DNA of 56,145 bases from a virus. A program made the position numbers and the translations under genes. Below are positions 4,025-39,099 of this stretch, piece after piece. The stretch is from positions 1-56,145 of IMG/VR virus record IMGVR_UViG_3300017917_004309. One strand, written 5' to 3'. The notes beneath the pieces were generated by a model that worked only from the letters and a program-made list of their open reading frames with translations, did not search any database and was not told the DNA's origin. Within the stretch, counting starts at the first letter, position 1. The number at the start of each line of letters is the position of its first letter.

Positions 4025-4408
4025 ATGGCAACTCGTTCTCGCATTGGTGTTCAACTCAAAGATGGTTCTGTTCTCTCGGTGTATTGTCACTGGGACGGCT
4101 ATCCCGAGTGGAATGGTAAGAAACTCAAAGAACATTTCAACTCTTACGAACAAGCTGCAGAGTTGATTGATGGCGGTGACATCAGTTCTCTGTGGACTGA
4201 TAAAGATTGGGAACAGAAAGAAATGAAATCCCGCACTCTGTATTATGCTGAGCGTGGTGAAACTGACACCGAACCTAATCTTGACAACTCCTTCCAAGCT
4301 TTCATCAGTGGTGTAAATGATTCGTGGGCAGACTATGCCTACCTCTTTGCCGATGGTGAATGGAAGTGTTATACTCCTAAAGGTAATGAAGAACAAATCC
4401 CTGCGTGA
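4025..4408 (+). CDS. Conserved phage hypothetical protein, MATRSRIG family (127 aa)
   Basis: The N-terminus MATRSRIGVQLKDGSVLSVY followed by CHWDGYP is characteristic of a widespread phage family of unknown function in which a beta-rich start is followed by an H-DGYP motif. The rest is acidic with many aromatic residues. Start supported by the cassette leader just upstream. Probably early, since a promoter-like cassette precedes it. Confidence 0.7.
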   Translation: MATRSRIGVQLKDGSVLSVYCHWDGYPEWNGKKLKEHFNSYEQAAELIDGGDISSLWTDKDWEQKEMKSRTLYYAERGETDTEPNLDNSFQAFISGVNDSWADYAYLFADGEWKCYTPKGNEEQIPA

Positions 4409-4944: not shown

Positions 4945-5565
4945 ATGTTTATCAAAAACAACAAACCCGTTAGAATACTTGGATACAAACAATCTTCAAT
5001 CGCTGAACAATACTGCCAAGTTTTTTCTAAAGAAGGTCTTGTTGATTTTGAGTTAATGCTTCCAGAAGATTTCAAATCCTTGGAAGATAAGAATCAATAC
5101 CAGTATGCAATCGCTTTCTATCTCGACATGGAGCTTAGAAAAGAGATTTGTGATCTATTGGATGATCTAAATCTAGATTGTGTCACATACATTGATGACT
5201 CAGTTTATATGTTCCCTTCCTCACATGTGGGGAAGGGATGTTTTATTGGTCATTTAGTAGAAATCTGTTGGAATGCTTCTGTAGGAGATTATTGTTACTT
5301 TGACAATCAATCTGGTGTTGGACATGATGTGATTCTAGGTAGAAATAGTATTGTAAGCTCAAGAGTTTATGTTGGAGGTAGAACAAAGATAGGAGAAAAC
5401 TGCCTATTTTACCTTAATGGCACAATTATGAATAACCTAAACATCTGCAACAATGTTATTCTATGTACCCATAGCAACATCACCAAAGACATTGCAATTC
5501 CTGGAAAGTATGTAGGAAGAAATGCAAGACTTATGAAACCAGAGACCACCGATAAGGATCTTTAA
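4945..5565 (+). CDS. Left-handed beta-helix acyltransferase, NeuD/PglD-like (206 aa)
   Basis: Residues 1-85 form a small alpha/beta N-domain (RILGYKQSSIAEQY...). From about residue 95 there are hexapeptide-like repeats: VGKGCFIGHLVEICWNASVG, then VILGRNSIVSSRVYVGG, TKIGENCLFYLN and a C-terminal IPGKYVGRNARLMK. This matches sugar O/N-acetyltransferases that modify surface polysaccharide precursors. HDVILG supplies the His usually used as base. Such genes are common in cyanophages and may alter host surface sugars; substrate unknown. Confidence 0.75.
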   Translation: MFIKNNKPVRILGYKQSSIAEQYCQVFSKEGLVDFELMLPEDFKSLEDKNQYQYAIAFYLDMELRKEICDLLDDLNLDCVTYIDDSVYMFPSSHVGKGCFIGHLVEICWNASVGDYCYFDNQSGVGHDVILGRNSIVSSRVYVGGRTKIGENCLFYLNGTIMNNLNICNNVILCTHSNITKDIAIPGKYVGRNARLMKPETTDKDL

Positions 5566-7597: not shown

Positions 7598-7759
7598 ATG
7601 ATGAATCTCCGACCACACCAACAACGCGCAGTTGATCTTATGCAACTGCATAACAAAGGTCAGATAATCGTTCCCACTGGTGGCGGGAAAACGATGAAAA
7701 TGATCAAAGATGCAATGATTCAATTCCAACAAAATGATGCAACCGCAAATGCAAACTGA
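7598..7759 (+). CDS. DEAH helicase, N-terminal fragment with Walker A (53 aa)
   Basis: ATGATG at 7598 opens a frame encoding MMNLRPHQQRAVDLMQLHN and then IIVPTGGGKT, i.e. the Q-like motif and Walker A of a superfamily 2 helicase. The frame stops at 7757-7759 just after FQQNDATANAN. The remaining helicase motifs lie in the +1 frame from 7734. In intact relatives both parts are one protein, so this is either a programmed +1 frameshift, a split gene or a mutation/assembly error. Confidence 0.7.
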   Translation: MMNLRPHQQRAVDLMQLHNKGQIIVPTGGGKTMKMIKDAMIQFQQNDATANAN

Positions 7760-8843
7760 AAAGACTATTGTAGTTTGTGCTCCCCGCATCCTCCTGGCCA
7801 GCCAGCTGTGTTCTGAGTTTCTAGAGTTTATCACCAACGCAAGTGTTCTGCATGTTCACTCTGGTGAAACGCATCACTATTCTACTACCAAACCCCAAGA
7901 AATTGTGGACTGGTGGGTGAACACTCGTGGCCACAAACTGATCTTCACCACCTACAACTCTCTGGAGAGACTGCAACAATCTCGTATCAAAGTTGATACC
8001 ATTTACTTTGACGAAGCTCACAACTCTGTCAAACGCAACTTCTTCCCTGCAACTGAATACTTCAGTCACGAAGCTGACCGTTGTTACTTCTTCACTGCGA
8101 CTCCCAAACATTCTCTCGCAGTCGGTAAGCCTGGGATGAATGATCCTGAGGTTTATGGTCAGGTCATTTGTAATGTTCCTGCACCTGAACTTGTGCAAGG
8201 TGGTTACATTCTCCCTCCGAAAGTTCTTGCGAAACAACTTCCGATGGTGAAGTCTGGTAAGATTCCTGCGGATCGGGATTGTACTAACCTGATTGAGACT
8301 CTGGATGAATGTGGTAAGGACAAAGTGTTGATCTGTGCGAAAGCTACCAAACAGATCTCTGCACTGATGTCTGAGACTGATTTCATTCAACAGTTGCAAG
8401 ATCGTGGGTTCTCGTATCTCTACATCACCGCAAAGACTGGTGCAATTATCAACGGTCAGAAGGTGAATCGTGAGGTATTCTTTGAGACCCTAAGTGCATG
8501 GGGTAAGGATGACTCTAAGAAGTTTGTTGTGTTACACCATTCTATCCTCTCCGAGGGTATCAATGTGAGTGGTTTGGAAGGTGTGATCTTTATGCGATCC
8601 ATGGATTACATTGGTATCTCCCAAACCATCGGCCGTGTGATTCGGATGCACCACGATGATGCAGCTCGTATCCGTAGTGGTGAACTGATCCCTGGTGATG
8701 TGAACAACTACACCAAATCTTTTGGTCTGGTTGTTGTTCCCGTCTTCAACAAAGTCGGTATCTCCACTCACCAGAAGATCCAAGCTGTGGTGGATACGAT
8801 CTTCCAACAAGGACAGCCTGCAATCTCGGTGGTGAAGCGATGA
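7734..8843 (+). CDS. DEAH-box helicase, main part without Walker A (369 aa)
   Basis: Frame from ATG 7734 begins MMQPQMQTEKTIVVCAPRIL (motif Ia). It continues with DEAH at residues 93-96 (YFDEAHNS), FFTATPKHSL (motif III), and a C-terminal RecA domain with EGINVSGLEGVIFMRS and QTIGRVIRM (motif VI, residues about 297-305). Together with the +1-frame Walker A fragment at 7598 it makes a complete SF2 helicase of about 420 residues. Probable role in phage DNA recombination or replication. Alone it could not bind ATP normally. The overlap with the N-fragment is 26 bases. Confidence 0.75.
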   Translation: MMQPQMQTEKTIVVCAPRILLASQLCSEFLEFITNASVLHVHSGETHHYSTTKPQEIVDWWVNTRGHKLIFTTYNSLERLQQSRIKVDTIYFDEAHNSVKRNFFPATEYFSHEADRCYFFTATPKHSLAVGKPGMNDPEVYGQVICNVPAPELVQGGYILPPKVLAKQLPMVKSGKIPADRDCTNLIETLDECGKDKVLICAKATKQISALMSETDFIQQLQDRGFSYLYITAKTGAIINGQKVNREVFFETLSAWGKDDSKKFVVLHHSILSEGINVSGLEGVIFMRSMDYIGISQTIGRVIRMHHDDAARIRSGELIPGDVNNYTKSFGLVVVPVFNKVGISTHQKIQAVVDTIFQQGQPAISVVKR

Positions 8844-16870: not shown

Positions 16871-17065
16871 ATGAACACCATCAAACTCACCAAAACACAA
16901 ATCGAAGTTCTAATTGAAACTCTACAGTCAGCAGTAAATGTTTGCGATTCTGTAGATCCAACACAAAAGGATGATGCTGAAAAAACTTATCCTTTTGCTT
17001 GTGGGTATTCTAGGGCTGCAATGCTTCATGCCTTGAACTCTCTCAACATTTACCTAGACCAATGA
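16871..17065 (+). CDS. Hypothetical helical protein (64 aa)
   Basis: The ATG at 16871 follows the previous stop directly. MNTIKLTKTQIEVLIETLQS, mostly helical, with ACGYSRAAMLHALNSLNIYL at the end. The stop overlaps the next ATG. Function unknown. Confidence 0.55.
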   Translation: MNTIKLTKTQIEVLIETLQSAVNVCDSVDPTQKDDAEKTYPFACGYSRAAMLHALNSLNIYLDQ

Positions 17066-17286
17066 ACAACTTAAAAAAACCACGAGCAATCATAGCACCA
17101 AAATCAAAGAAGGCCAAAAACCGATTCTGTAATCAGATGGAATCAAATCCTGTGTGTATTGTTGAGCAATCTAACTCACAACGACTCTTTCTTGCATCGT
17201 CCAATGACAAATACTTTTTTTGGGTTGATCTGGTTGGAGATGACAACTGGTCCATCGAAACCATCCTGGATGCGGAAAATCCGTAA
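17062..17286 (+). CDS. Hypothetical protein, paralogue of the gene at 10866 (74 aa)
   Basis: Has the same ordered motif as the protein at 10866: KSKKAKNRFCNQMES, C-IVEQS, YFFWVDLVGDDNW and SIE. It ends the left-hand gene block; a terminator follows. The duplicated small family is of unknown function. Confidence 0.6.
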   Translation: MNNLKKPRAIIAPKSKKAKNRFCNQMESNPVCIVEQSNSQRLFLASSNDKYFFWVDLVGDDNWSIETILDAENP

Positions 17287-17317
17287 AGTGTAGATTAGAA
17301 CTGAAATCTTGTTGGAT

Positions 17318-17345
17318 AAGCCGTAGGATCACCTGCGGCTTTTTT
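17318..17345 (+). terminator. Intrinsic terminator
   Basis: AAGCCGTAGG-atca-CCTGCGGCTT forms a 10-bp stem (one G-U pair) followed by a T run. It closes the left gene block and separates it from the origin-like island. Confidence 0.8.
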
Positions 17346-17374
17346 GTGTGGTTTTATGGTTAAATGGTGGTGGT

Positions 17375-17395
17375 TGTGGAAAAACCTGTGGAAAA
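17375..17395 (-). repeat. DnaA boxes 1 and 2 (TTTTCCACA on minus strand)
   Basis: TGTGGAAAA occurs at 17375-17383 and 17387-17395, i.e. TTTTCCACA on the minus strand, the form reported for cyanobacterial origins. They flank the AT-rich tract that starts at about 17402. Confidence 0.65.
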
Positions 17396-17457
17396 CGTTG
17401 GGTAGAATAAATGTATTAAAAAACATTGAATTATCTTTTTTATGTTACGGAAATAGT

Positions 17458-17517
17458 GGGTAAATGTGAGACTTTATGGGTAAATGTGAGATGTTATGAG
17501 TAAATGTAGAATCTTAT
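17458..17517 (+). repeat. Three tandem 20-bp repeats (iteron-like)
   Basis: The units are GGGTAAATGTGAGACTTTAT (17458-17477), GGGTAAATGTGAGATGTTAT (17478-17497) and a diverged third starting GAGTAAATGT (17498-17517). They are head-to-tail with no spacer, about two helical turns per unit, as in plasmid iterons that bind a replication or partition protein. Confidence 0.8.
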
Positions 17518-17763
17518 AGCTGTCTAGGGCCGCATTGTACCATAAGACCTCCGATTTGTCAACCGACCGGGGACAGTAAAAAAAGTGGCACACCCCCACT
17601 TGACATAAGGCCGTCAAGCCCTCATAGGACACTTCAAGAACTGGCACTGGGGGGTTGACACCTATCGCAGGTTTCAGTAGCCTTATAGGGCCGGGGGGGA
17701 GGGAATCAGAGCGATCTAGTTCAGATCTAGTTGTGGACAGATCATAAAGTGTCACACAAGGAC

Positions 17764-17793
17764 TTGACAAGTGGCCCAGGTATGAGGTATTAT
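17764..17793 (+). promoter_or_regulatory. Sigma70-like promoter firing into the DnaA-box hairpins
   Basis: TTGACA (17764-17769), an 18-base spacer and TATTAT (17788-17793). A transcript would start near 17800 and run at once into the hairpins at 17811-17860. There is no gene within 200 bases downstream, so a small RNA or origin primer is possible. Confidence 0.6.
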
Positions 17794-17810
17794 AGGGGTA
17801 GACTCTTATA

Positions 17811-17860
17811 GTTTTCCACAGCCCCTGTGGAAAACCTGTGGAAAAAAAGTTTTCCACAGG
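17811..17860. repeat. Two perfect 11-bp hairpins made of four DnaA boxes
   Basis: GTTTTCCACAG-ccc-CTGTGGAAAAC (17811-17835) and CCTGTGGAAAA-aaag-TTTTCCACAGG (17835-17860) are perfect inverted repeats. Each arm contains one TTTTCCACA box (17812, 17826, 17837, 17850). Confidence 0.8.
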
Positions 17861-17947
17861 GAGATCCCTCCCTCCCGCCCTATAGGCTAAGCCCCCATGA
17901 GACCTTATAGGTTAAGAATGGACACTTTAAGAACTGGCACAATCTAG

Positions 17948-17976
17948 TTGACAGTGGGGAATCTAGTTGGTAAATT
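17948..17976 (+). promoter_or_regulatory. Sigma70-like promoter
   Basis: TTGACA (17948-17953), a 17-base spacer and TAAATT (17971-17976), 25 bases before the ATG at 18002. It probably drives the 52-residue orphan gene. Confidence 0.6.
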
Positions 17977-18001
17977 ATGAGGGTCAATCAAATCTAGTTC
18001 A

Positions 18002-18160
18002 ATGATCTTTCATTCAGCATCAGATCTTAAAACAAAACAACAGATCTGGGTTCTAAGGAAAGAGAACCAAGAGGTTGAGTGTTACGATACTGTTACCCTA
18101 GCGGGTATGTACGCCAGAGAGTACCACAAAGACGTGAAGCCGATACATTGGGATACCTGA
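18002..18160 (+). CDS. Orphan small protein (52 aa)
   Basis: ATG at 18002, open to the TGA at 18158. It starts MIFHSASDLKTKQQIWVLRK and ends HKDVKPIHWDT. The upstream TTGACA-17-TAAATT promoter is the main support; a GAGG-like ribosome site is not obvious. The two halves predict a strand-turn-helix. No family recognised. Confidence 0.5.
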   Translation: MIFHSASDLKTKQQIWVLRKENQEVECYDTVTLAGMYAREYHKDVKPIHWDT

Positions 18161-18163
18161 TGA

Positions 18164-18230
18164 GTCCAACTGAGACCCATAAGGATTCCTATTATTTGGA
18201 GTTCTTATGGGTCCAACTGAGACCCATAAG
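18164..18230. repeat. Direct and inverted repeats before the GP88-like gene
   Basis: GTCCAACTGAGACCCATAAG occurs at 18164-18183 and again at 18211-18230. The second copy also forms a perfect hairpin CTTATGGGTC-caactga-GACCCATAAG (18204-18230). Possibly an operator or transcript-end structure between the two island genes. Confidence 0.75.
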
Positions 18231-18251
18231 ATACGCTGATCAGTCAGGTGG

Positions 18252-18281
18252 TTGACAGGCTGGCGGATTCGTTGGTACCTT
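18252..18281 (+). promoter_or_regulatory. Sigma70-like promoter for the GP88-like gene
   Basis: TTGACA (18252-18257), an 18-base spacer and TACCTT (18276-18281), 23 bases before the ATG at 18305. The -10 is weak but well placed. Confidence 0.5.
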
Positions 18282-18304
18282 ATGGGAGTCGCTGAGGCAA
18301 TCCA

Positions 18305-19051
18305 ATGCTCACCTTTTCCCACGGCAACGCAAAGCTGACCGATCGGCTGATCTTCAGCCTGCCCGCTGGCAAGACCTGCCCGGGTGCTCTGTTCTGCCTG
18401 AGCTTTGCTGCCGTTGATGATAACGGCAAGCGTCACGTTGTTGATGGCCCACAAACACAATTTAGGTGCTTTGCTGCTACCAGTGAGGCACAATACGATG
18501 GCCCATTTTATAGTCGGGCTCGCAATCTGCAGCTGATTGTTGATGCTATCAAGTCCAACACTGCAGTCGAATTGTTGAACACCAGCCTGCAAAAAGCTCG
18601 CAAAAAGAATAGCAAGCTGGTGAGGATTCACGAGTCTGGTGATTTCTTTTCTGGTGCTTATCTGGATGCTTGGTTAACAGTGGCCCGGTTAAATCCTGAC
18701 CTTAAGTTCTATTGCTATAGCAAGAATCTGCCCCTGTTCGTTGAGGCTAACTTGCCGGATAACTTCTACCTAACTGCTAGCTATGGTGGCAAGTTCGACT
18801 CTATGATCGACGCAGGTATGTTCCCACGTTATAGCAAGGTGGTTCACAATGATGAGGAAGCTGATGCTTTGGGCCTAGAAGTGGATCACGATGATTCACA
18901 CTGTTTTGGTGAGAATCCGTTTGCTTTGTTGGTGCATTCAACGCAGCCAAAAGGATCATCCTATGGCAAGGCTGTTTGGGCACGTCGCAAGGCTGGTAAA
19001 TTCAGCGGCTACCGGAAGGAACTGCGGCCTATTCTGGCCGCCAGTGTATAG
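18305..19051 (+). CDS. GP88-like protein (248 aa)
   Basis: Begins MLTFSHGNAKLTDRLIFSLP, followed by AGKTCPGALFC (CPG-x(3)-C). It continues with FRCFAATSEAQYDGPFYSRAR, LVRIHESGDFFSGAYLDAWL and a LKFYCYSKN segment. This order matches the GP88 family known from mycobacteriophages and mobile DNA, function unknown. Codon use and GC are higher than in flanking phage genes, suggesting recent transfer from a host replicon. No operon partner. Confidence 0.7.
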   Translation: MLTFSHGNAKLTDRLIFSLPAGKTCPGALFCLSFAAVDDNGKRHVVDGPQTQFRCFAATSEAQYDGPFYSRARNLQLIVDAIKSNTAVELLNTSLQKARKKNSKLVRIHESGDFFSGAYLDAWLTVARLNPDLKFYCYSKNLPLFVEANLPDNFYLTASYGGKFDSMIDAGMFPRYSKVVHNDEEADALGLEVDHDDSHCFGENPFALLVHSTQPKGSSYGKAVWARRKAGKFSGYRKELRPILAASV

Positions 19052-19073
19052 CCATCAGCAATCCTAATGGGTC

Positions 19074-19090
19074 GGGGGCTTCACGCCCCC
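19074..19090. terminator. GC-rich hairpin after the GP88-like gene
   Basis: GGGGGC-ttcac-GCCCCC, 22 bases after the stop, followed by C/G rather than T, so a weak or non-canonical terminator. Confidence 0.45.
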
Positions 19091-19145
19091 CCCGGGATGA
19101 GCTACTATTAGAGCAAGCCGGAAGACCGGCACACCCAATAAGATC

Positions 19146-19433
19146 ATGAACGACCGCCTCACCCGCACCAGCATCCCCGCCATTCTGGCTATTGCCGTGG
19201 CAAGGGCCACCATCAAGAACCCCAGCCCCATCGGTCGCCACAGGGCCCAGTGGCTCTGCGACCTGGCCCTGAGCCAGGACCCTCAGGCTGGCCTAGGTCG
19301 GCAAGCCCTGCAGGCCGCCTGCAAGGCCGCCGGTAGGCACACCGGGGCCAACCTACCCGCTGACCGGGTATTCAACCGGGCCAGCAACAGGCGGTTGCGT
19401 AACTGGAGCCAGGACCGGAACAGCCCGGTCTGA
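19146..19433 (+). CDS. GC-rich orphan protein (95 aa)
   Basis: Starts MNDRLTRTSIPAILAIAVAR. Ala/Arg/Gln-rich with many GC-ending codons, quite unlike the AT-rich genes on both sides. The composition fits a high-GC marine Synechococcus-like donor. A helical repeat-like middle (GLGRQALQAACKAAGRHTGA) has no known motif. Low codon constraint elsewhere in the island keeps confidence moderate. Confidence 0.5.
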   Translation: MNDRLTRTSIPAILAIAVARATIKNPSPIGRHRAQWLCDLALSQDPQAGLGRQALQAACKAAGRHTGANLPADRVFNRASNRRLRNWSQDRNSPV

Positions 19434-19441
19434 TCAGCAGA

Positions 19442-19470
19442 CCTTATGGGGGCTTCGGCCCCCTATAAGG
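19442..19470. terminator. UUCG-tetraloop hairpin
   Basis: CCTTATGGGGGC-ttcg-GCCCCCTATAAGG is a 12-bp stem with one bulged base and the extra-stable TTCG loop. No T run follows. Likely protects or ends the transcript of the gene at 19146; it also contains two copies of the CCTTAT/ATAAGG word typical of this island. Confidence 0.6.
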
Positions 19471-19655
19471 ATCTGTGATGGATCAGAATGCCTTATAGGT
19501 CACCTGGGGACAGATAAGCGGCCCTTATGTGTGCCCCCCCTCGGCCCCCCTTACCTAAAAACGATGGGTCCCTCCAAGCTATAAGACCTTGAAATCGACC
19601 TCTAAATACCTTTCAATTCAAAAAATTTTTGCCCAAAAAAATTTCCCAGGGGGGT

Positions 19656-19684
19656 TGACAACTCATAAGGTTTCTGATACTCTA
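19656..19684 (+). promoter_or_regulatory. Sigma70-like promoter
   Basis: TTGACA (19656-19661), a 17-base spacer and TACTCT (19679-19684), 22 bases before the ATG at 19707. The preceding 19471-19655 stretch holds A/T runs and CCTTATAGG words but no gene. Confidence 0.6.
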
Positions 19685-19706
19685 TAAAAAGTTTCTTAAC
19701 AAACAC

Positions 19707-20183
19707 ATGAACATTGAATTTATTGCCCGTCGAACACCCGAGTATTGGGTCTTTGATCATGAGCACGAGAACACCATCGATGAAGCTCTATGCAATGGCA
19801 CAGATGCTGTGATGGATGAGTACTACAAGATCTTCACTAAAAAGGATGCCAATGTTGGCGATCTTATGAGGATTGTTGCAAGCACAGAAGATTTTGAGGG
19901 AGCAACAACAGTATTGGAATTTGCAAAGTCTGATTGTGGTGGAAGTGTATACCTGGACATGGTACTCTTTGAAGAAGTATGGCTGTGCCCGTGGTTACAA
20001 TCATACTTTGGTGAAGTTCCCAAGTATCTGTTTGTTAAAGTGGATCCAGTAAATGTGGCACTGGAAAACTTCCAAAAGAATTATGCACATCCATTTAAGA
20101 AGTTTCAGCAGGTTGAAGAAGACCTTTTGTCAGAATATTCAGATGAAGAAGTTGTAGACTTTGTGAATTCGATTTCAAAATAA
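19707..20183 (+). CDS. Conserved cyanophage-type protein, possibly DUF6717 (158 aa)
   Basis: MNIEFIARRTPEYWVFDHEH, followed by ENTIDEALCNGTDAVMDEYY and the stretch VYLDMVLFEEVWLCPWLQSY. This combination (W-FDHEH-NT, ALCNGT, VWLCP-LQ) matches a cyanophage family I recall as DUF6717. Function unknown. It restarts ordinary phage-like AT-rich coding after the island and has its own promoter. Confidence 0.65.
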   Translation: MNIEFIARRTPEYWVFDHEHENTIDEALCNGTDAVMDEYYKIFTKKDANVGDLMRIVASTEDFEGATTVLEFAKSDCGGSVYLDMVLFEEVWLCPWLQSYFGEVPKYLFVKVDPVNVALENFQKNYAHPFKKFQQVEEDLLSEYSDEEVVDFVNSISK

Positions 20184-24953: not shown

Positions 24954-25358
24954 ATGTCAGTTAAAATCTCTAGAGCTTTTAAGGATTTTAGCTTATCCTT
25001 CAAAAAGCACCCATTAACTAATGATATTATTGCACTTAACAATGAGGCCGCAATCAAAAATGCGGTTATTAATTTGATACGCACTAGAATTGGAGAGAGA
25101 TTTTTCAATACGAATGTTGGAACTAGTGTTAATGATTCTATTTTTGAATTACAATCCAATGCAATTGGCATTCAATTAGAAAATGAAATCAATCAGGTTC
25201 TTAATACGTATGAACCGAGAATTTTTGTAAATGACGTAAGAGTTGTGTTTTCTTTGGATGAAAATGAAGCCTCTGTTACTATAAATTATAATATTATTGG
25301 CATTCCAGTGACAGGTCAACAAGAATTAACGACAATTTTAACACCGACTAGAGTATAA
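24954..25358 (+). CDS. gp25: gp25-like baseplate wedge protein (134 aa)
   Basis: The size (T4 gp25 is 132 residues) and motifs fit: AAIKNAVINLIRTRIGERFF, NTNVGTSVNDSIFE and the final EASVTINYNIIGIPVTGQQ. gp25 is part of the inner baseplate wedge and primes sheath assembly with gp6 and gp53; it resembles the T6SS gp25/lysozyme-like core protein. It is followed immediately by gp6, as in cyanophages. Confidence 0.9.
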   Translation: MSVKISRAFKDFSLSFKKHPLTNDIIALNNEAAIKNAVINLIRTRIGERFFNTNVGTSVNDSIFELQSNAIGIQLENEINQVLNTYEPRIFVNDVRVVFSLDENEASVTINYNIIGIPVTGQQELTTILTPTRV

Positions 25359-36200: not shown

Positions 36201-39099
36201 AGGTTTGGGATCCGGATATCAGCCATTAACTAGAGCATTTGCTATTCCAGTAATCTCTGGGGCAGGAACAGTTCAATCTTTAATTTTACAGAGTAGTGGT
36301 TCTGGATATCGTTCTAATTCTGGCGTAGAAATTTTAGGGATGGTTGGCTCTGGTGCATCTATAGTTGCTTTAGTTGGCACTGGAAACTCCGTTGGACTAA
36401 TTACCGGATTTAATATTATTTCCGGCGGTTCTGGATACGCATCAACAAATCCTCCAACTATATCTGTAGGAGTTCCAACTGCATATTCCAATCTTACACT
36501 TATAGGTGGATCTGGTTCTGGAGGAAAGATCGATATTACTGTTGGGGTTGGAGGAAGTGTCACTGAATTTGAAATTACAAATCGTGGATTGGGTTACAAG
36601 CCAAATGACGTTTTAACAATAAGCGGTGTCCCGACTGCAGTTGGAGTGGGAACCAGTGCATTTAACATTACAATTAAAAATATTATAACGGACAAATTTT
36701 CGGGATGGTCTTTTGGCAACTTAACACTTCTCGATGATATTTCATCTCAATTCAATGGACGTTCAAGATCATTTGTTATTACAATAACTGACATTATCAC
36801 AGAACGTTATAATATTAGTGCTCTTCCCGGATCAGGAATAAACCCAGAAGAAACACTAATAATCATATTGAATGATGTTCTACAGTCTCCAGGAGAAAAC
36901 TATAGTTTAGTTGGAGGAGAACGAATCGTATTTACTACTCCACCACCAGTAGGAAGCAAGTGTTTAATATTCTTCTATAAAGCATCTCCTGCTGACGTTG
37001 ATGACATTGATAGTTTAAAGCAAGTTAAAATTGGGGATAGTTTAGTATTGAATAAAAAGGATCAGTATGTTGAGCAATTAAAGCGAGTTGTAACTGAAAT
37101 ATCTTCATTGACAGAAACTAGAACTACCAACTATATTGATGTTGGTATTAACACTGACCCAACATTCTACAGAACACTAAATCACACGAAGCAAAGAACC
37201 GATTTAATCGTCAATAATTCATATGTATCTAAAGCAAGAATACCATTGGAGGGAAGAATTTCTCCAGTATCTAGAATAATTAAGCCAGTAAGTACTAGTG
37301 ATATTGTAATATTTGTGGAAAATGCATTTCCAATTTTTAGACAATTAGATAATTTACCGCAAATAAAAAATTCAGTAAATTTAATTGATGAGAAGCAAAC
37401 AGTATCAGCTAGAGTAAATGCTGTTGTTTCTGCCGCTGGTACAATAACAGACTTTACAATATTAAGTGGTGGAGAAAATTATTCAACTGCTCCAGAAATT
37501 ACAATTTCGACAACTAAGCCAATTTTACCACAATATGGAAAAACTTGGGTATCTGGAACAATAGAGTCTGCCACAGTTGAAAATTACAATGACTTTGATT
37601 TTGGAAACGGAATTTTTGTTGCTTGTAGAAATGTTGGTGGTATTTCTACTTCACTGAATTTTACTATTTGGGACAATCAAACAACCATATCTGCTCAAGA
37701 TTTAAATTCAATTTCTTATGGCAATGGGAGTTGGGTCATTGTTGGTAATGGAGCAACAATATTTTCATCATTAAATGCAACATCTTGGACTGGAGTTGGA
37801 ACATTTTTCTCTAGAGTATATGCGGGAGGAATTATTCCCTTTGAATATCCAACAGCATCATATACTGGAAATCTCAATTCAGTAACTTATGGAAATAATA
37901 AGTTTATAGCTGTTGGTGCAGGGGGGAGCGCCTTAGTTTCTGAAGTATATTCTGGAATTTCCACATCTTGGGTTGTTCGCTCAACACCTTCTTCAAATGA
38001 ATTGAATTCTGTTATTTTTGGAGTGGACAACTATGTTGCCGTTGGAAATGGTGGATATATAACTAGATCTTCTGATGGATTTGTTTGGTCTTCTCAAGTT
38101 TCAGGAACTTCAAATAATCTAACCTCTGTAAAATATTTAAATGGCATTCACTTTGCCGTTGGAGATAGTGCGACTTTAATAAAATCAACCGATGGCGGTG
38201 GAATTTGGACATATAATAGCACACTATCCCAATATGCAGCCTATGATTTATTTGATATAATTTATAAGAATGGCGTTTATTTAATTTCCGGATCAAATGG
38301 GCTTGTTTTAGTTTCTTCTGATGGAGATAACTGGATACGAACAACAAATTCAAGTGGAAATATTAATTCATTGGGAACTGATACTTTTAGAATAATTGGA
38401 GTTGGGCAAACAGCTAAATATTCAGTAACAGACTCTGAAGTAGTTAAAGCAACAGCCACAACTGTTATTTCTGCGGGAGGAACAGTTCAATCTATATCAA
38501 TAGTTGAACCCGGATTTGGCTATAATGAATCTGTTGGGGTAAACGTATTAGTTGCCCCTCAGCCCCTATACTTTGAAAGATTAGATAATGTAAATGCAAC
38601 CGGTGACTTTGGAACAATAGTTGGAATAGCAACAAGTGCTACTGGAATTTCAACAACTAGTCCCATGATTATATTGCAATTTGATTGCGATGAAGCTTTA
38701 AGCTCAACTTCATATGGAAGTATTACTAGAAGTGGAATTCAAACTGGTTACTATTATGTTTTAAGTCAGACGTATGTTGGATCTGGAGTAACTTCCATAG
38801 ATGCATCAAACGGATTTAATGTTCTTGGTATTGGATCCACATTCATTGATAATGTATATCGAGCGGATCATCTTGTTTCGGATGTCAATTCTGGAATAGT
38901 TACAGTATACTCAAATGTAATTTCAGTTTCAGGAATAGCTCAAACAAGTCAAAATAGGTGTGGATATTACAGTTGGGGAAGATTAACATTTAATAGTAGA
39001 CAAGAACCAAAACAATTTACATTAAGTAATACTGGTCTTCTCGGAATTTCCACAGCACCAATAATAGTAAGATTACGACCTCTCTTAGAGAGTTACTAA
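27256..39099 (+). CDS. Giant gp7-locus baseplate protein (3947 aa)
   Basis: Occupies the T4 gene-7 position between gp6 and gp8. The N-terminal 250 residues (MLNRDLQRVKIHQVIESQLP, then FVDFLKQYYISQDYTGSVVD and FYRTKGTPEALDILFKSLYG) match the cyanophage protein annotated as baseplate wedge initiator. The rest is beta-rich: many GY-PP-x-GG repeats (SGGSGYASTNPPTISV), SVGIGTT-type segments, and at residues about 3436-3716 a run of GNG-FVAVG/SSDG-W repeats like an Asp-box/BNR propeller. T4 gp7 has 1032 residues, so this is almost four times larger; long beta arms may form baseplate extensions or receptor-binding parts. Confidence 0.8.
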   Translation: MLNRDLQRVKIHQVIESQLPSFVVNENPLFVDFLKQYYISQDYTGSVVDLCENIDRFINLENFDGNSFSDTSTTLTADIDYADSTIEVESTSSWPKSYGLLKINNEIITYTSKDDTHFYGAVRGFSGIESFHKEISPNELVFSATESDSHISGDTVQNLSNIIFVEIWKKLKYQFLPGFENNELFSGIDKAAFLSRANDFYRTKGTPEALDILFKSLYGESDLKVIKPSESLIKPSDASWNVADTLVVEGISGDVNAIDGFPITQQNPYAYGNVYISTLISVGESSYYQIVLSNESKVGKFKACPTTKVTSAALSTDNSITVDSTIGFDEIGELLINGNYISYNGKSSTQFLNCVLIDDIELYSTVRQNYFVVSYENGDLTKPVYMRVSAVISNTDDILNNARYMVVGDEINVRTIGEDIGANFEIYNNRAENWLYNINYELELVNSPGGITKTTSPAIINTKIPHNFRLNDSVTLIDVDIFDTFTNSPITGRVIQILSPTSFIFEFFSGQLFENLEYVVRKNIKFYQFSDNKYVTDIQNTYVDKNREYLYVSTSSIPSYITSEIDYKKYFSVTNQSDLISTVNKFGQPVNHNFYTGDKVYFNYSGENIGIDTGTYFVKKVSDQTLKLAYNLAKIYQNDYIILSSVGISSYSNTLSLSNLKDKVVTDQKLLKRVKINPESKISSFRLKDKSLEVPVGIFLNGTEIVYSKSPDKIYYGQLTKINVNSKGRGYDIINRPNVIIDDSEVGYGASAIAHITGGLHEIKLTNKGYDYLDAPTIKISGGNGRNAVAEAIMKDELTVINFIGSQIGVNTSSNTIGFTTFHNLLSGEEVIYKCYNNAAIGIGTSGTPAAGESDTKRFLVDSARYFAIKVDDFRIKLSEKYTDASLGINELNLTQTSKGNHTLISTKRRKVVDRIAIINSGENYSNKKIIINSVLYPKEIVDKQNALVGINTHESYIYAKNHGFSSGDLVTYSTNGSSISGLSTTQNYYVIKLDNDRIRLASAGIGTTLSDSNYKNNNYTKLYGKGSGEHIFEFPPIVVEIKGTPRSPGVSGISTDNPANQISAQASGIPVFLGEVSNIFLYSGGSNYGSPQILNHNRTPVVTLNSGSGAILVPIILNGGIVEVRVIKKGSGYVAPPELIVTGSGSYASLEPVILNGQIVSVKILDSGKDYLLSDTEITIKTKGNGASLSADIQNWQLNVYEKYKNIIEDELIKSDSFASNSFDKNIDTVQLVSPTAPRKLRYLLGDNLTENLTPSQNITHSPILGWAYDGNPIYGCFGSSSPDKLENIKRMASGYEKILKPNRPPDYNLGFFINDYEYVSGGDLDEYNGRFCVTPEFPNGTYAYFVTIDIQNNKEVPVYPYVIYDFFGEPDLYNYDTTNSQTSKTFDEYNLIRNSTPYNINEQFSYYGGINLNYSKNAKSLVRSIYKTGIDSIDVKDGGQNYKVDDRLIFDNTSTNGRGLSAAVSEVVGKGVSFVSYTKQFLDNIEFIESGNLIIGIASTAHNLSNNQIITITGINTSSYKFIEGIHTVSVSTSFTELSLGIGLTASTGITTAIRLSEPTSSGKINVNDVLQIDSEKVLVLQVNKSNNTYKILRGYNSTLAGIHTAGASVELIPRTFSFRTPSGIRTNSSTELNTIKYFNPQVEVGIGTTATIKYVGIGVTFVPIGIQTGQGSYTKISFYRHSFKIGDIIELSGATNIGISSAIVVSTTATSITVDYNSSSVSSVGIGTTTIVKQRAYNKIEPQNIYMPGHGYNSGQKLKYYPISGVGLTCSKNPSLTPEFTLQNGDIVYIVKTDNDNFGISTTFVGIGSTSKLYFKDISNSTGESHGLETTNLNPIGEFTTIKGTLTTFNEHNLKVSDDFTFKITPNLIESVTLKFDDSSARLIANPISVASTYFSVSKDVISISNHSFKTGDKIVYSAASSASPLISGEEYFVIKVDNNNIKLAQYYNDAINLNYNSIGFTTTGSGNHTLGLINPPLKFIRGNTVNFNVSDSSMKNLVLDFYLDSSFTTKIAQKDITRIGSPGDQSATTSVQLKLSEEIPNVFYYKLTPVGISSITNNAIAYNVDYDVISNSRIEVETSGYDSSYSVISVGNTTIEFNLPKVPEVSTYNLSGISTFYYYTSSKTALGPIKSISIGFTGTGYQTLPGITTITTESGFGAVVSPVSEKIGSIKNISILNSGYDFPTDPTLAPKADVPFTVRLSNNYELDQIVVTFGGKNYLVPPKIISPDHPELKFTTVIEGSILTGASIDVNKTGLSEIPPRLLCVNNSNGVSISNATSDGQTNTLEILPKSGNYIEFPFKVGDEIFVEGVKLLNPSSQDTGYNSEDYNYRTFTVTSINDASGFESISYSIVGYGITGGYFDADNSVGRVIKNEEIAKVTSTMRKSDFIENEIIYNDGDIFKVQKNGWNKEKSILKLSGNETFLDIGTIVVGNSSNSKGTIEEITLTESSYKVDGECKKELGWLTQTGFLNNTDQRIHDSEYYQYFSYAINSKIYKEDWTDPVLSLAHPSGFKVFGDLILNSVPSTGIGRSNNLAVRIDNLSDLTIAIENTLSFDTVQNFDTSYEVTTNDNTSKTVGFLTKKLINFSVCKTNKVLKIDDISSQFNGTSIGTDAKGGRIVGLSTFRLTSKGLGVLSNYFIAQNVCGVGGSVVNLPGHNFSTGEEAIYDAGAGGTRIAIASTNRVLGGITTDFLPERVFIYKVDNNRFKISGIKTDAVANGHYLTFRDLGGGLGVGAGSSHSLSVPSDLANARSLITIDNIIQSPLHKKKISTSLSSSVSVGDTTITLTGITSISANLLFRIDNEILKIGVVGLGSTNVISVVRGSMGTVAAAHTVGAAVTVLGGDYNISKGYIHFTTPPYGKVGPVGLTTGSTFAGRAFYRFNYDNAYIFDDISNQFNGSNTEYELSSYNNDVTGIVTNVGNNVLGPNYGIILINNILQKPVIDYSMKERAAIGIGASIQFTGTDVLSLPKGGYINEVLAGLGSGYQPLTRAFAIPVISGAGTVQSLILQSSGSGYRSNSGVEILGMVGSGASIVALVGTGNSVGLITGFNIISGGSGYASTNPPTISVGVPTAYSNLTLIGGSGSGGKIDITVGVGGSVTEFEITNRGLGYKPNDVLTISGVPTAVGVGTSAFNITIKNIITDKFSGWSFGNLTLLDDISSQFNGRSRSFVITITDIITERYNISALPGSGINPEETLIIILNDVLQSPGENYSLVGGERIVFTTPPPVGSKCLIFFYKASPADVDDIDSLKQVKIGDSLVLNKKDQYVEQLKRVVTEISSLTETRTTNYIDVGINTDPTFYRTLNHTKQRTDLIVNNSYVSKARIPLEGRISPVSRIIKPVSTSDIVIFVENAFPIFRQLDNLPQIKNSVNLIDEKQTVSARVNAVVSAAGTITDFTILSGGENYSTAPEITISTTKPILPQYGKTWVSGTIESATVENYNDFDFGNGIFVACRNVGGISTSLNFTIWDNQTTISAQDLNSISYGNGSWVIVGNGATIFSSLNATSWTGVGTFFSRVYAGGIIPFEYPTASYTGNLNSVTYGNNKFIAVGAGGSALVSEVYSGISTSWVVRSTPSSNELNSVIFGVDNYVAVGNGGYITRSSDGFVWSSQVSGTSNNLTSVKYLNGIHFAVGDSATLIKSTDGGGIWTYNSTLSQYAAYDLFDIIYKNGVYLISGSNGLVLVSSDGDNWIRTTNSSGNINSLGTDTFRIIGVGQTAKYSVTDSEVVKATATTVISAGGTVQSISIVEPGFGYNESVGVNVLVAPQPLYFERLDNVNATGDFGTIVGIATSATGISTTSPMIILQFDCDEALSSTSYGSITRSGIQTGYYYVLSQTYVGSGVTSIDASNGFNVLGIGSTFIDNVYRADHLVSDVNSGIVTVYSNVISVSGIAQTSQNRCGYYSWGRLTFNSRQEPKQFTLSNTGLLGISTAPIIVRLRPLLESY

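Follow-up and report, generated by a model that had tools for sequence, protein, structure and literature searches.

A conserved locus of host-type DnaA boxes upstream of gene 25 is a candidate replication origin in T4-like cyanophages

Introduction

Why would a T4-like phage carry a tight group of cyanobacterial DnaA boxes in a non-coding part of its genome? We know of no involvement of DnaA at the origins of T4 itself. In open-access papers, we found neither a report of DnaA boxes in cyanophages nor a description of the replication start sites of T4-like cyanophages, and the control locus described here is apparently new to the literature.

Results

A six-box cluster between two genes

The window analyzed here is the complete IMG/VR record IMGVR_UViG_3300017917_004309 (56,145 nucleotides; sequence identical). 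The original prediction placed six exact copies of one DnaA-type 9-mer at 17375 to 17858, and these positions were confirmed:

17375–17383, minus strand: DnaA-type box, left group, exact TTTTCCACA
17387–17395, minus strand: DnaA-type box, left group, exact TTTTCCACA, 12 bp from the 17375 box, head to tail
17812–17820, plus strand: DnaA-type box, right group, exact TTTTCCACA
17826–17834, minus strand: DnaA-type box, right group, exact TTTTCCACA
17837–17845, minus strand: DnaA-type box, right group, exact TTTTCCACA
17850–17858, plus strand: DnaA-type box, right group, exact TTTTCCACA

A seventh exact copy at 37314 (minus strand) is the sole one outside this cluster, and shuffling predicts 1.5 copies in the whole window. 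A count of all 9-mers ranked TTTTCCACA as the most clustered, with 6 copies in 484 bp; across 60 Markov-simulated windows, the densest 9-mers did not exceed 3 copies per 500 bp. The E. coli-type box TTATCCACA is scattered and forms no clusters.

Matches to gp25, gp6, gp8, neck, and tail-sheath-stabiliser proteins bear out the assignment of the contig to the T4-like phages. All six boxes lie between the stop of an open reading frame (ORF) at 17062–17286 and the start of the GP88 gene at 18305, within a non-coding region of ∼1 kb (17287–18304). The sole overlapping ORF of at least 60 amino acids, a GTG-start frame on the minus strand (17474–17857), is probably not a gene. Three genes served as flank and anchors for comparison with other phages:

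7734–8843, plus strand: phrog_16 DNA helicase, anchor upstream of the locus (PHROGs E 1e-48)
18305–19051, plus strand: GP88 gene (PF17338), right flank of the locus (Pfam E 7e-43)
24954–25358, plus strand: baseplate wedge gene 25 (gp25), anchor downstream of the locus (Pfam and PHROGs matches)

The helicase is referred to by its PHROGs family because no PDB match establishes it as UvsW. Directly right of the locus, GC content reaches 53% (19001–20000), compared to ∼30 to 35% beyond 25 kb; this segment may hold recently acquired genes.

Box sequence and flanks match the host type

The 9-mer TTTTCCACA is a published cyanobacterial DnaA box (PMC4674748). For comparison with hosts, 78 picocyanobacterial dnaN loci were retrieved as database sequence, using a dnaN bait query. 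Both TTTTCCACA and the 9-mers one base away from it show strong enrichment in the 500 bp preceding dnaN, in line with the cyanobacterial type first assigned to the phage boxes. For an extended 11-mer, GTTTTCC[AC]CAG, the counts are 27 in the 39 kb preceding host dnaN and 2 in 446 kb elsewhere. In freshwater Synechococcus and Cyanobium, the exact 9-mer is often replaced by a variant such as TTTTCCCCA. One locus in this material (L318) is titled as a Bifidobacterium breve metagenome-assembled genome; it is probably misbinned, because its dnaN is picocyanobacterial and its DnaA boxes are cyanobacterial.

The phage boxes also favor the flanking bases of the host boxes (aGTTTTCCACAGg), such that box plus flanks, GTTTTCCACAG, is common to the phage locus and the region upstream of host dnaN. 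As expected of a bacterial oriC-type origin, boxes of the species type are clustered: the window holds six exact boxes, with the same 11-mer as the host dnaN regions. Spacings between phage boxes are 11 to 13 and 19 to 23 bp, near whole helical turns; the search pattern favored the convergent spacings of 13 and 23 bp but not the head-to-tail spacings, and head-to-tail pairs are common among the phages.

The cluster occupies a fixed position in T4-like cyanophages

In complete genomes, a cluster was defined as two or more boxes within 60 bp. By this measure, 7 of 23 complete T4-like cyanophages contain one, always at the same locus upstream of gp25 and nowhere else in the genome: DSL-LC03 has seven boxes there, S-PM2 (array at 19231–19264) and Sf-FR1 have three each, and Syn9, S-SM2, P-TIM68, and DSL-LC02 have two each. 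A genome-wide count, proposed earlier as a check, shows that boxes are concentrated at the locus; in Synechococcus phage DSL-LC03, the complete genome contains 10 boxes, of which 7 fall within 457 bp at the equivalent place. Distances were measured in six genomes, where the locus precedes gp25 by ∼2 to 8 kb; in Sf-FR1, the GP88 gene lies 2 kb downstream of the cluster. The T4 genome has no box cluster.

Contigs retrieved by a box pair place the cluster upstream of gp25 (39/39), upstream of phrog_1574 (34/34), and downstream of the phrog_16 helicase (6/6), in counts that include related contigs and come from contigs selected for boxes. A further sample was picked by neighboring gene rather than by boxes, and here 63 boxes were found in 281 kb upstream versus 4 in 570 kb downstream. 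A cluster is present in 5 of the 21 contigs of this sample that have at least 5 kb upstream, and the boxes are therefore a minority trait. Since exact boxes are missing from most sampled relatives, they are not universally required. Among box-less relatives searched for degenerate boxes, three were not above expectation and S-RSM4 was slightly above it; such members may rely on other repeats.

An A+T-rich element and a conserved promoter-like motif adjoin the boxes

When distant phages were compared, both visually and in alignments, two further components of the locus were recognized, an A+T-rich element and a motif here called E2. The window contains the following:

17403–17462, no strand assigned: A+T-rich element with AAATGTATTAAAAAACAT core, a candidate for DNA unwinding and the least stable 60-bp stretch within 5 kb
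17457–17496, plus strand: two direct repeats of TGGGTAAATGTGAGA
17514–17550, minus strand: conserved non-coding motif E2 (profile match), plus-strand consensus GTCTTAGCRCGCANNCTATCA
17534–17562, minus strand: leftward sigma-70-type promoter overlapping E2, TTGACA-17-TACAAT, 11 of 12 consensus positions, TG before the -10
17764–17793, plus strand: rightward sigma-70-type promoter, TTGACA-18-TATTAT, 11 of 12 consensus positions

The A+T element directly adjoins the left boxes, and the earlier description of the cluster as non-coding and next to AT-rich DNA is accurate. Comparable elements lie beside the boxes in DSL-LC03, S-PM2, and DSL-LC02; the core sequence itself shows a weak, ∼2-fold enrichment near boxes, measured over an A+T-rich background.

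E2 lies ∼50 to 150 bp from the left boxes in the distant phages compared. A profile derived from seven phages matches the window and 59 non-redundant loci, 39 of which have boxes on both sides of E2. Among box-bearing contigs, E2 is a single copy beside the boxes, with 63 of 65 profile matches at most 500 bp from a box (0.06 per locus expected). In S-CAM9, S-RSM4, and two further contigs (L238 and L241), E2 stands without exact boxes, again upstream of gp25 or phrog_1574.

The leftward promoter scores at least 10 of 12 in 44% of the 59 non-redundant E2 loci, compared to 3% after shuffling and 7% on the opposite strand. Several E2 loci have a perfect TTGACA-17-TATAAT; many others keep the -35 and have merely TAAGAC at the -10 position. 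Across the 1.7 kb scanned, sigma-70-type promoter matches number 9 at the locus versus 2.6 expected. In the window, the leftward promoter (17562–17534) points through the A+T element downstream of it (17403–17462) and then through the left boxes, and there is little coding sequence in the leftward direction.

Other repeats and contigs were noted during these comparisons. A block, GGACACTT(C/T)AAGAACTGGCAC, is repeated at 17627–17660 and 17920–17953, ending in TTGACA; relatives have copies right of E2, and the block is possibly a recurring upstream promoter element. The box-less contig L241 has, left of E2, a tandem array of a ∼22-bp unit, AAATAGTGCTAGAAATATTATG, in seven or eight copies (∼4075–4265), which may substitute for DnaA boxes. 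Palindromic repeats (TCTCGTCGAGA / TCTCGACGAGA) occur upstream of phrog_1574 in ∼10 viral contigs, and in S-SRM01 (L132) they lie near 5320–5484, right of the GP88 gene. Of the 118 box-pair viral contigs, 46 (L018, L021, L026, L028, L041, and others) show no E2 and no anchor genes; these could be short fragments or unrelated phages that have their own DnaA-box clusters.

Discussion

Capture of a host or plasmid origin is not supported, and known phage origins offer parallels

The original prediction also considered that a host or plasmid origin had been captured, and this part is not supported. A blastn search of 72,556 plasmids returned no match, and plasmid capture was rejected. DnaA-trios are unwinding elements of the basal system of bacterial origins (PMC8287927). 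A run of at least three [CT]T[AT] trios was found beside 0 of 378 phage boxes, and CTAC[TG]AC is present in 62 of the 78 host loci. Because the host DnaA-trios are absent in the phages, the locus is not a transplanted host oriC; unlike picocyanobacterial oriC, it also lacks dnaN and has the phage-specific E2. The non-coding module around the boxes is a property of the phage lineage, and some relatives have it without boxes. Complete genomes have no GC-skew switch or extreme at the locus, and the cumulative curve mostly tracks strand-biased coding. Many phages lack a GC-skew switch at their origin.

Parallels are found among phage and plasmid origins. T4 oriF and oriG each span about 100 bp and consist of a promoter and a downstream A+T-rich unwinding element, and T4 oriE is apparently dependent on an early promoter (PMC3016281). 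Like oriF (ori uvsY) and oriG, the cyanophage locus fires a promoter into an A+T-rich unwinding element. The promoter of oriF and oriG is a MotA-dependent middle promoter; the leftward promoter of the cyanophage locus carries a -35-like TTGACA and is probably of the host sigma-70 type, and DnaA-type boxes flank it. The shared neighborhood of gene 25 is not synteny: oriF lies beyond the 3′ end of the gene and the cyanophage locus upstream of it, that is, on opposite sides, and the parallel is therefore loose. Phage lambda and plasmid P1 encode their own initiators (O and RepA), unlike the cyanophage locus, for which no initiator of its own was identified. What they share with it is the placement of host DnaA boxes close to a promoter or unwinding element, with DnaA sites beside the origin promoter in the lambda origin region (pO) (PMC3985674) and boxes in two arrays in the P1 origin (PMC4980987).

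A transcription-primed origin with DnaA input

Because the locus joins the layout of oriF and oriG to host DnaA sites, we propose a T4-style, transcription-primed replication origin with input from host DnaA, an explanation that we regard as on balance probable. The host-type promoter at E2 would yield a short leftward non-coding transcript across the A+T element, and DNA synthesis would be primed from the resulting R-loop, in the manner of T4 oriF. On the box groups either side of E2, host DnaA would help to open or stabilize the duplex or tune the E2 promoter; put as alternatives, it may melt the A+T element, load helicase, or regulate the leftward promoter. The boxes, their fixed position, the A+T element, and the conserved promoter-like motif are observed, and from this sequence arrangement we infer DnaA binding, R-loop formation, and initiation at the locus. 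The fixed locus, host-type boxes, spacing near whole helical turns, least stable 60 bp, E2 beside the boxes with its leftward promoter, and the shared plan of oriF and oriG all argue for an origin; the lack of exact boxes in most sampled relatives, the four phages with E2 and no boxes, the missing GC-skew switch and DnaA-trio, and the weak enrichment of the A+T core argue against it.

The same sites could serve DnaA as a transcription factor that activates or represses divergent early promoters, with replication not starting at the locus. The concentration of promoter matches fits such a role, as does the placement of the right box group just 3′ of the rightward promoter and of the left group 3′ of the leftward one. 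Taken alone, however, transcriptional control accounts neither for the conservation of a readily melted element next to the left boxes nor for that of a promoter with little coding sequence ahead of it, and we consider it unlikely. Titration is another possible use: the sites are strong and clustered, and they carry the complete host consensus with its flanks. With two to seven boxes on every copy, the many copies of a phage genome would act as a datA-like sink for DnaA, such that host replication stops or resources are freed for the phage. The upper end of that range suits a sink, but many phages have just two or three boxes, and titration needs neither a fixed position by E2 nor the A+T element. 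We rate a sink as improbable.

The inverted boxes might instead act as RNA hairpins or terminators and not as protein sites. The right group is able to form two strong hairpins (z = -5.2 on the plus strand and -4.0 on the minus strand), yet folding of the left group does not surpass that of shuffled sequence, head-to-tail pairs are common, and box plus flanks equals the host origin box. No consensus RNA fold emerged for E2 and its flanks, Rfam returned no match, and an RNA element was rejected. We regard the hairpin explanation as very unlikely.

Implications for cyanophage replication

The initial observation is confirmed and is larger than first reported, as the host-type boxes belong to a conserved and positionally fixed locus in phages that include the models S-PM2 and Syn9. 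The locus is a conserved non-coding region of T4-like cyanophages that most likely controls replication, as an origin. That many of these phages start replication from a hybrid origin, with host DnaA in control of a T4-style promoter and unwinding element, is a plausible extension that falls just short of probable.

For S-PM2 and Syn9, the locus provides a precise candidate origin, and its sequence motif can be used to locate such loci elsewhere. Because DnaA-type sites cluster beside a promoter and DNA that melts readily, a host protein may start the copying of phage DNA. If the hybrid origin is real, the start of phage replication would be coupled to the host initiator; use of host DnaA would tie phage replication to the cell cycle and growth state of the host in abundant marine and freshwater cyanobacteria.
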